Below are positions 27,674-30,067 of a DNA stretch of 36,873 bases, piece after piece (within the stretch, counting starts at the first letter, position 1; each line of letters opens with the position of its first letter). This stretch comes from Desulfobacterales bacterium (GTDB lineage: Bacteria > Desulfobacterota > Desulfobacteria > Desulfobacterales > UBA11574): positions 1 through 36,873 of the forward strand of contig JAHECI010000001.1 of NCBI GenBank assembly GCA_024641825.1, given 5' to 3'. The notes under the pieces were generated by a model. That model saw only the letters and a program-made list of their open reading frames with translations. It was not told the DNA's origin and searched no databases. The position numbers and the translations under genes were made by a program.

Positions 27674-28189
27674 ATGATGTATAACAAAGTTGTAATGGAC
27701 CATTTCAGAAATCCCCGAAATGTAGGGATCATCGAAAATGCCGACGGGATCGGCGAGGTTGGTAATCCCTTGTGCGGGGATATAATGACCATCTATTTGA
27801 AAGTCAGCGATAACCAGATAGAAGATATCAAATTTCAAACCTTTGGATGCGGGTCGGCCATTGCGGTTTCCAGTATGCTGACGGAAATCGCCAAAGGGAA
27901 ACCCATCGACGAAGCCAAAAAGATAACCAATAAAGATGTCGCCAATGCCTTGGAAGGTTTGCCTAAAAATAAGCTGCACTGTTCCAATCTTGGCGCCGAT
28001 GCGCTGCACTTGGCCATTAAAGATTATGAAGATCGAAAAGCAGGAAAATCCCGGGTGGAACTCAAACGCAAAGAGGAACATGAACATGAACATGGAGACC
28101 AGTGCTACTGCCCGTATTGTGATGTGGAACTCGATAAAGGAACTGAATTCTGCGAAGCGTGTCAACACAGTCTTACCGAAGAACACTAA
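27674..28189 (+). CDS. iscU: IscU/NifU-N Fe-S cluster scaffold protein with His/Glu-rich linker and C-terminal zinc-ribbon-like tail
   Basis: GNPLCGD, FQTFGCGSAIAVSSMLTE, LHCSNLGADALHLAI (three scaffold Cys present); tail EEHEHEHGDQCYCPYCDVELDKGTEFCEACQHS; SD GGAGG. Confidence 0.93.
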   Translation: MMYNKVVMDHFRNPRNVGIIENADGIGEVGNPLCGDIMTIYLKVSDNQIEDIKFQTFGCGSAIAVSSMLTEIAKGKPIDEAKKITNKDVANALEGLPKNKLHCSNLGADALHLAIKDYEDRKAGKSRVELKRKEEHEHEHGDQCYCPYCDVELDKGTEFCEACQHSLTEEH

Positions 28190-28399
28190 TTCATATCCAT
28201 CCACAAATGTTAAATAGGAACGATGCGTTTCCAATTCATAAATAAGCAATTTTTGTCCGGATCAAGGCAGCACAAGGGTTTACGGTCCCCGCAGAGCGGG
28301 ACGGGAAGGAATACTTCCTGTATGCCCCAGCCGAAAACCTGCGGAGAACGCAGATCCGGGCAAAAAGGGCCATTTTTGGATGGAAACTAACTCATATCC
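28185..28399. repeat. Structured insert between iscU and the NifS-like gene, flanked by near-identical 14-bp direct repeats
   Basis: ACTAATTCATATCC (28185-28198) and ACTAACTCATATCC (28386-28399); inside it TTTTTGTCCGGATC (28250-28263) pairs with GATCCGGGCAAAAA (28353-28366), plus local hairpins CCCGC-AGA-GCGGG, AGGAA-TAC-TTCCT and CTGCG-GAGAA-CGCAG. Confidence 0.55.
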
Positions 28400-28414
28400 G
28401 AGAAAGGACTCACC

Positions 28415-29590
28415 ATGGACATTATCAATTTGGATCACATATCCTCCAATCCGCTTCTTCCAGAAGTAAAAGAAGCTATGATCGCGGCCCTTCAGGAGGA
28501 TTACCATAACCCTTCGAGTCAGCACAAGCGGGGAGAAGCGGCGGCCGAGGTGTTGGGAAAGGCCCGAAAAACCGTTTCCGCCCTCATCAACGCATCAAAT
28601 CCCAAAGAAGTGGTGTTTACCTCCAGCGGAACGGAATCCGTCAATCATGCCATCAAAGGGGTTGCCCTGGCCAACGCCCAAAAAGGTAAGCATATCGTCA
28701 CTTCAAATATTGAGCACAACGCCGTAATCCGAAGCATCCGGCGGTTGAAAGGGCTTGGATATTCCGTTACATCCATTGATGTGGATAAATACGGGCGTGT
28801 AAATCCGGCGGATGTGGCCGAGGCCATCACCGATGAGACCATACTGGTCACCATCATGCACAGCAACAACGAAACCGGAACGATTCAACCGATTGAGGAA
28901 ATCGCCAAAATTACTCGACAGAAAAAGGTGATCTTCCATACCGACGCCGTCGATTCCGTAGGCATCGTCCCCATTGATGTCCAGAAAATGGGGGTCGATC
29001 TTTTGAGTTTTGCGTCAAACACCTTTTATGGCCCCACCGGTATCGGTGGACTTTATGTTCGTCGGGGCATCATGGTTTGGCCGTTGCTCGACGGCGGCGT
29101 TCAGGAAAATAATAAGCGCGCCGGAACTGAGAATCTTATCGGCATCATCGGGATGGCAAAGGCTGCCGAAATGGCCAAACAAGAGCTTTCCATAAGGATG
29201 GCACATTTGGAAATGCTAAAATCCAAGCTGATCACCGAGTTGCCCAAATATATCGATGAGGTCATCATCAATACGCCTCCTGAATACAGTTTGCCCAACT
29301 TGTTGTCCGTATCCATTAAATATATCGAAGGCGAAAGCGTGATGCTGATGCTCGACGATGATGACATCGCGGTGTCGACGCGCTCTGCTTGTGCTACCGG
29401 ATCCCTAAGAGCATCTCATGTTTTGATTTCCATCGGGCTTTCCCATGCGGACGCCCAGGGAACGCTGGTGATTACACTGGGGCAGGACAATACTGAAGAC
29501 CATATCGACCGTTTTTTAAAATCGCTCCGAAATGTAGTGAAGACCTTACGCAACATATCGCCGCTATATCGAAAAATCTCACAAAGCTGA
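28415..29590 (+). CDS. NifS/IscS-like protein (cysteine desulfurase family) lacking the PLP-binding lysine
   Basis: Full-length family homology (NPSSQHKRG, TSSGTESVNHAIKG, NIEHNAV, HSNNETG, HTDAVDSVG, SACATGSL, NLLSVSIKYIEGES) but SFASNTFYGPTGIG replaces the canonical SFSGHKxYGPKGIG. Confidence 0.92.
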   Translation: MDIINLDHISSNPLLPEVKEAMIAALQEDYHNPSSQHKRGEAAAEVLGKARKTVSALINASNPKEVVFTSSGTESVNHAIKGVALANAQKGKHIVTSNIEHNAVIRSIRRLKGLGYSVTSIDVDKYGRVNPADVAEAITDETILVTIMHSNNETGTIQPIEEIAKITRQKKVIFHTDAVDSVGIVPIDVQKMGVDLLSFASNTFYGPTGIGGLYVRRGIMVWPLLDGGVQENNKRAGTENLIGIIGMAKAAEMAKQELSIRMAHLEMLKSKLITELPKYIDEVIINTPPEYSLPNLLSVSIKYIEGESVMLMLDDDDIAVSTRSACATGSLRASHVLISIGLSHADAQGTLVITLGQDNTEDHIDRFLKSLRNVVKTLRNISPLYRKISQS

Positions 29591-29686: not shown

Positions 29687-30067
29687 CTATAATAATTTTA
29701 ATGCATCCACCCGTTTCTCAAACTCGGTTCCTGAAATCTGGTCCCAGGGAGCAATGGGATCAAACCGAAGATGAGATTTTACATTGGGCAAAAAGAACTT
29801 GCCGGATGTAATATTGGGTGCTTTCATCAAATATTTGAATTCACCCCCTAAATCCAGAATCAAATCCAGGTCATCGCTCTCTTCCAAAAGCGCTACCATC
29901 AGTGTGTTTTGTATAAGGCCGCTGCCCTTTAATCGCTTTTTTCCGCCTGCCCCGGTATAAACTTCGATGGACGTTCTCTCCAGTGAAACCGCAGTATTGT
30001 TATCGGCGATTAAAAAGGCTTTCTCTACCAAATATGTTGCATTCTCAAAAAAGATCCAGTCGTTCAC
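29687..30067 (-). CDS. Hypothetical protein
   Basis: 126-aa ORF, GTG start with AAAGGAA 7-10 nt upstream; no recognised domain. Confidence 0.6.
   Translation of the reverse strand: MNDWIFFENATYLVEKAFLIADNNTAVSLERTSIEVYTGAGGKKRLKGSGLIQNTLMVALLEESDDLDLILDLGGEFKYLMKAPNITSGKFFLPNVKSHLRFDPIAPWDQISGTEFEKRVDALKLL

Follow-up and report, generated by a model that had tools for sequence, protein, structure and literature searches.

Can an IscS-type protein still take part in Fe-S cluster assembly once the residues that carry out cysteine desulfuration are gone? ISC-type assembly is usually considered to begin with cysteine desulfuration, and Lys206 of IscS is the lysine that forms the Schiff base with PLP. 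The question is raised by a pair of adjacent genes, here designated iscU* and iscS*, in a 36,873-nt stretch of DNA from a Desulfobacterales bacterium (GenBank assembly GCA_024641825.1, contig JAHECI010000001.1; hereafter the window). The original prediction, made from the letters of the window, was that the IscS/NifS homologue encoded there has lost the PLP lysine but kept the mobile-loop cysteine, and that it acts as a catalytically dead partner of IscU in a sulfide-rich cell.

The iscU*-iscS* pair of the window

The sequence features on which this prediction was based were all found as described. The codons AAC ACC (29018-29023) specify Asn202-Thr203 in place of His205-Lys206, the TGT codon of the loop Cys is retained, HTDAVDSVG (Gln183 replaced by Asp) and LVITLGQ (in place of IRFSLGR) are both present, an iscU gene accompanies iscS*, and the 391-codon frame is intact, with no frameshift (Table 1). 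In the alignment, the E. coli residues Lys206, His205, Ser203, Gln183, His104 and Arg354 correspond to Thr203, Asn202, Ala200, Asp180, Asn102 and Val352 of IscS*, respectively, the last two replacements (Arg354 being the Arg lost from IRFSLGR) going beyond what had been predicted. The E. coli positions Asp180, Thr76, Asn155, Thr243 and Cys328 are retained (numbering of E. coli IscS was taken from the literature, since the alignment has no E. coli row). In E. coli IscS, variants at His104, Asp180, Gln183, Lys206 and Cys328 lose activity (most or all of it at His104, Gln183, Lys206 and Cys328), and Arg354 binds the substrate, although the R354K variant retains activity (PMC9978102).

Table 1. 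Features of the iscU*-iscS* locus, with positions in the window.
Feature	Position	Strand	Description
iscU*	27674..28189	+	171 aa; Pfam NifU_N
IscU* C-terminal zinc-ribbon-like tail, CYCPYC...FCEAC	28103..28162	+	follows His-rich linker
iscU-iscS* spacer	28190..28414	+	225 bp, vs about 30 bp in same-genus relative
iscS*	28415..29590	+	lysine-less IscS/NifS homologue, 391 aa
Asn102 codon	28718..28720	+	position of PLP-stacking His104 (E. coli numbering)
Asp180 codon	28952..28954	+	position of Gln183 (E. coli)
Ala200-Ser201-Asn202-Thr203	29012..29023	+	positions Ser203 to Lys206 (E. coli)
Cys326 codon (TGT)	29390..29392	+	mobile-loop catalytic Cys (Cys328 in E. coli)
Val352 codon	29468..29470	+	position of substrate-binding Arg354 (E. 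coli)

In HMM scans, IscS* grouped with the cysteine desulfurases, but it scored under the equivalog cut-off of all 25 families listed, the best of them being NCBIfam NifS (435 bits against a cut-off of 530.75). The AlphaFold2 model of IscS* has a mean pLDDT of 92.9, its least certain part being the Cys loop (residues 325-330, pLDDT below 50). In Foldseek, this model matched human Nfs1 complexes and the IscS complex of Archaeoglobus fulgidus, with TM values of 0.93-0.96 for Nfs1 and the archaeal IscS. When compared with a functional desulfurase, IscS* therefore has the predicted IscS/NifS fold and the mobile-loop Cys (Cys326), and by its residues lacks the Schiff-base lysine, Gln183, His205 and the substrate-binding Arg. 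An alternative Schiff-base lysine was sought, but none is newly conserved in the lysine-less set; the positions of Lys81, Lys90 and Lys387 are also Lys in lysine-bearing proteins. Part of the PLP site persists (Thr73, Asp177 and usually Thr238), and for this reason IscS* may still be able to bind the cofactor. The dN/dS ratio of iscS* is 0.09-0.15 against close orthologues (about 0.14-0.15 against those of the same genus), and the gene is therefore under purifying selection.

The cluster site of IscU* keeps Cys34, Asp36, Cys59, His102 and Cys103, which are conserved in 150-151 of the 151 IscU rows of the family, so that the three cluster Cys and the Asp of an IscU scaffold are all in place. 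Among PDB entries, A. fulgidus IscU (4eb5_C) is the one that IscU* matches best. The dN/dS ratio of iscU* against close orthologues is 0.06-0.16, and its predicted model is less certain than that of IscS* (pLDDT 77.0). The five cysteines of the C-terminal tail (Cys144, Cys146, Cys149, Cys160 and Cys163) are invariant among 19 orthologues; Pfam returned zinc-ribbon matches for this tail, all of them sub-threshold, and it may bind metal.

The spacer between the two genes contains a stretch whose inverted ends, TTTTTGTCCGGATC ... GATCCGGGCAAAAA, match imperfectly; it looks like a small inserted element. Beyond iscS*, the minus strand carries a small ORF (29687-30067) that is conserved in the genus and has no Pfam match.

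Extent and branches of the lysine-less family

The search for orthologues in Desulfobacterota that had been proposed along with the prediction found the lysine-less state phylum-wide, in 154 non-redundant homologues with the same loss. Reading of the motif in the fetched loci gave 155 non-redundant lysine-less rows (the 154 bacterial proteins and A. fulgidus IscS) and 64 lysine-bearing rows. In the order-level search, a protein scoring 610-785 bits was present, among the matches listed, in 85 of 390 genomes, the next group starting near 393 bits, while at the level of the phylum the scores formed a graded series. The SFA[S/A]N[T/P/S/A]FYGP motif was found again in orthologues from independent assemblies.

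Because the position of the lysine itself was used to split the two sets, counts of this residue within them are true by definition. The evidence independent of the split is (i) the absence of the lysine from every fetched match of at least about 430 bits to the clade A model (four such matches lie outside the fetched set), (ii) the placement of the proteins in the tree, and (iii) the joint loss of Arg354, Gln183 and His205 together with the lysine, with the Cys retained. The residue table comprises 151 bacterial lysine-less rows; the remaining three (L016, L154 and L237) have Ala at the lysine position, and their motifs agree with the tabulated rows. Arg354 is present in 64/64 lysine-bearing rows and in 0/151 lysine-less rows, Gln183 is retained in 63/64 of the former and lost in 151/151 of the latter, and for His205 the corresponding figures are 64/64 and 150/151. 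The loop Cys is retained in 150/151 lysine-less rows, the single exception, L232, being gapped at the loop. The positions of His104 and Ser203 carry weak evidence, since they are occupied by Pro in 50/64 and by Ala in 12/64 of the lysine-bearing rows, respectively.

The tree was built from 96 proteins with the PLP-site columns left out. A branch of modest support (84/70) has the 72 bacterial lysine-less rows on one side, with no lysine-bearing row among them. IscS of A. fulgidus, the only archaeal relative in the tree (its sequence was confirmed residue by residue against 4eb5_A), was placed elsewhere, but forcing it into the bacterial lysine-less clade costs 1.8 log units and is not rejected (p-AU 0.44), and the tree is compatible with one loss of the lysine as well as with two.

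The protein of the window belongs to clade A, in which iscU lies upstream and the motif is of the SFASN type. Clade B, nested inside the bacterial lysine-less rows (100/99), has a SLSGVSLGAPKG-type motif, a TGSACASKAL loop and iscU downstream. IscU is adjacent in 105/108 clade A, 38/47 intermediate and 13/14 clade B loci; in the nine other intermediate loci the flanks fetched, slightly longer than 1 kb, showed no IscU. The CxxC...CxxC tail occurs in 132 IscU partners of the family (101 of 102 non-truncated partners in clade A, 29 of 38 intermediate ones and 2 of 11 in clade B), and several of the tail-negative intermediate partners carry a variant Cys-rich tail. The partners of lysine-bearing proteins are 12 short IscU and 21 long NifU proteins; for the short ones, which the count covers, the tail is present in 0/12.

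A conserved third gene was sought next to the clade A pairs, where iscU alone stands out. Other large clusters of neighbours in this clade appear to be shadow frames of the two paired genes. In clade B (L018, L019, L021-L024 and L196-L203), the gene order is tusA-like, iscS*, iscU, with the tusA-like gene upstream in all 14 loci and an Rrf2 regulator downstream in four. In the family as a whole, Rrf2 genes lie close to a few members.

Canonical desulfurases and sole-carrier genomes

Whether a second, canonical IscS/NifS accompanies the lysine-less protein, a point raised in the original prediction, received a divided answer. The genome of the window does contain a canonical NifS, of which the 68 C-terminal residues lie at one edge of contig C137; they are 95.6% identical to a same-genus protein, and serA comes next. 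A second HK-bearing desulfurase is found on contig C250. IscS* is thus an extra system in this genome, and most other carriers also hold a canonical NifS. A search of 50 genomes for this protein left three (G083, G154 and G120) with the lysine-less protein only, and in these and in G072 no IscS/NifS-type protein was found besides IscS*. The only other strong Aminotran_5 member in the four genomes is the phosphoserine transaminase SerC (assigned by its sequence in the case of G083), and IscU* is their sole full-length NifU_N match. The IscS* of G072 runs off the contig end and reads SFASNSCYGPTG. These genomes are drafts, 93-99% complete, from two families, with three from one genus, so the absence of another desulfurase is likely but falls short of proof.

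No SufBD core was found in the genome of the window, in eight other carriers checked or in the four sole-carrier genomes. Two carriers (G092 and G708) differ from the others checked in having a SufBD-core protein. All four sole-carrier genomes have a full dsrA, while only fragment matches to this gene were obtained in the genome of the window; two genomes of the same genus have dsrA.

Proposed role and comparison with known systems

The explanation that we favor, with a probability of roughly 0.55, is that IscS* is an IscS-fold protein, dead as a desulfurase, that helps IscU* to assemble clusters from sulfide. The two proteins would form a two-gene Fe-S cluster assembly module, in which IscS* no longer desulfurates cysteine. 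It would most likely dock on IscU*, probably without PLP, so that its loop Cys326 reaches the cluster site and serves there either as a ligand or as a gate for sulfur. Sulfide from the cell's own sulfate reduction is the likely source, although sulfane sulfur could also serve. The simplest mechanism would be the one described for A. fulgidus, where a desulfurase-dead IscS binds to IscU and lends its Cys to the cluster that is being formed. Since the lysine-less pair is the only such pair found in a few genomes, these appear to build their clusters without the usual enzyme. Counting against this reading are the canonical NifS of most carriers, including the genome of the window, the nine intermediate loci without IscU in the fetched flanks, and the draft state of the sole-carrier genomes. 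We put forward only tentatively, as a proposal that may well prove too broad, that an IscS*-IscU* pair without PLP, fed by sulfide, carries all of the Fe-S assembly of some sulfate reducers, with the zinc-ribbon tail acting in metal handling; the ISC fold would then work as a general assembly route without cysteine desulfuration.

Given the TusA-family gene directly upstream of iscS* in 14/14 clade B loci, a persulfide relay has to be taken seriously as a rival, though on balance it is unlikely. IscS* would then be a PLP-free sulfurtransferase: its Cys326 would receive sulfane sulfur from another donor (a TusA-like carrier, a rhodanese, polysulfide or another desulfurase), and IscS* would deliver this sulfur to IscU*. 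The retention of the loop Cys and of the fold would suit such a role, and E. coli IscS binds TusA (PMC2854127). However, no TusA gene was found beside iscS* in clade A, the clade of the window, and the sole-carrier genomes lack another donor of the IscS type, the type that the search covered.

It is improbable that IscS* is a pseudoenzyme regulator that acts on IscU* by sequestering or tuning it, or else as a competitor of the canonical NifS, with no direct part in assembly. The presence of a canonical desulfurase in most carriers would allow for such competition, but this role is a poor match for the four genomes in which there is nothing apparent to regulate, and it gives no obvious reason for the retention of the Cys. 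Even harder to credit is an enzyme that binds PLP or PMP and uses another residue as the base for a changed chemistry. The persistence of Asp177, Thr73 and mostly Thr238 speaks for it, as does the very low rate retained by the K206A variant of E. coli IscS; this rate is thought to depend on His104 (PMC9978102), and His104 is lost from IscS* together with Gln183, His205 and Arg354, with no newly conserved lysine in their company. A pseudogene or a sequencing error, the latter of which had been named as a possible source of the AAC ACC codons, is ruled out by the same state in 154 bacterial proteins (non-redundant, and drawn from many assemblies), the recurrence of the motif in independent assemblies, the intact frame and a dN/dS ratio well below 1.

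A large bacterial family with the fold and the Cys but without the chemistry, in some genomes the only system of this type found, would show that ISC can use another sulfur source, and would split the docking and ligand role of IscS from its role as an enzyme.

The canonical bacterial systems (IscS/NifS with IscU/NifU) share with IscS* the fold, the loop Cys and an IscU-type partner. Unlike IscS*, however, the lysine-bearing proteins all keep His205 and Arg354 (64/64 rows), and their partners are either short IscU proteins without the ribbon tail or long three-domain NifU proteins. The minimal IscS-IscU system (MIS) is also an IscS-IscU module, and IscS*-IscU* resembles it in the adjacency of the two genes without a conserved adjacent carrier gene. 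The MIS is described as containing a cysteine desulfurase (PMC12192291), whereas IscS* is without the residues for cysteine desulfuration. The SMS system (SmsCB) is reported to use sulfide without a cysteine desulfurase (PMC12192291), but its scaffold is SUF-type and unrelated to IscS*-IscU*, and its SufBD core is missing from our searches of the genome of the window and the four sole-carrier genomes.

No description of a bacterial family of this type was found in the open-access text searched, and new with respect to that literature are the phylum-wide bacterial lysine-less IscS family, its ribbon-tailed IscU, the TusA-linked branch and the sole-carrier genomes. Lysine-less IscS proteins are already known from A. 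fulgidus and Methanosarcina acetivorans. The IscS1-IscU1 pair of M. acetivorans likewise combines IscU with an IscS homologue that lacks the essential lysine, in a genome that also has a working IscS2-IscU2; IscS1 formed inclusion bodies, and its function was left untested in that study (PMC7585200).

The closest parallel is IscS of A. fulgidus (PDB 4EB5, 4EB7 and 4HVK; D199K variant, 4R5F), which was correctly named in the original prediction as lacking the Schiff-base lysine. The lysine is replaced by Asp199 (SSNDIYGPKG), the position of His205 is Asn, as in IscS*, and those of Gln183 and Arg354, both also lost in IscS*, are Ala and Leu. The fold and the loop Cys are kept in both proteins, and both have an IscU partner with three Cys and the Asp. 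The archaeal IscS differs in keeping Ser203 and the GPK lysine, and its IscU, of 153 residues, shows no CxxC...CxxC tail over the length that could be aligned. The archaeal IscS is described as without activity and as providing a Cys ligand (PMC7585200; PMC9769115). With the family described here, the story of A. fulgidus becomes comparative, and testable in sulfate reducers.
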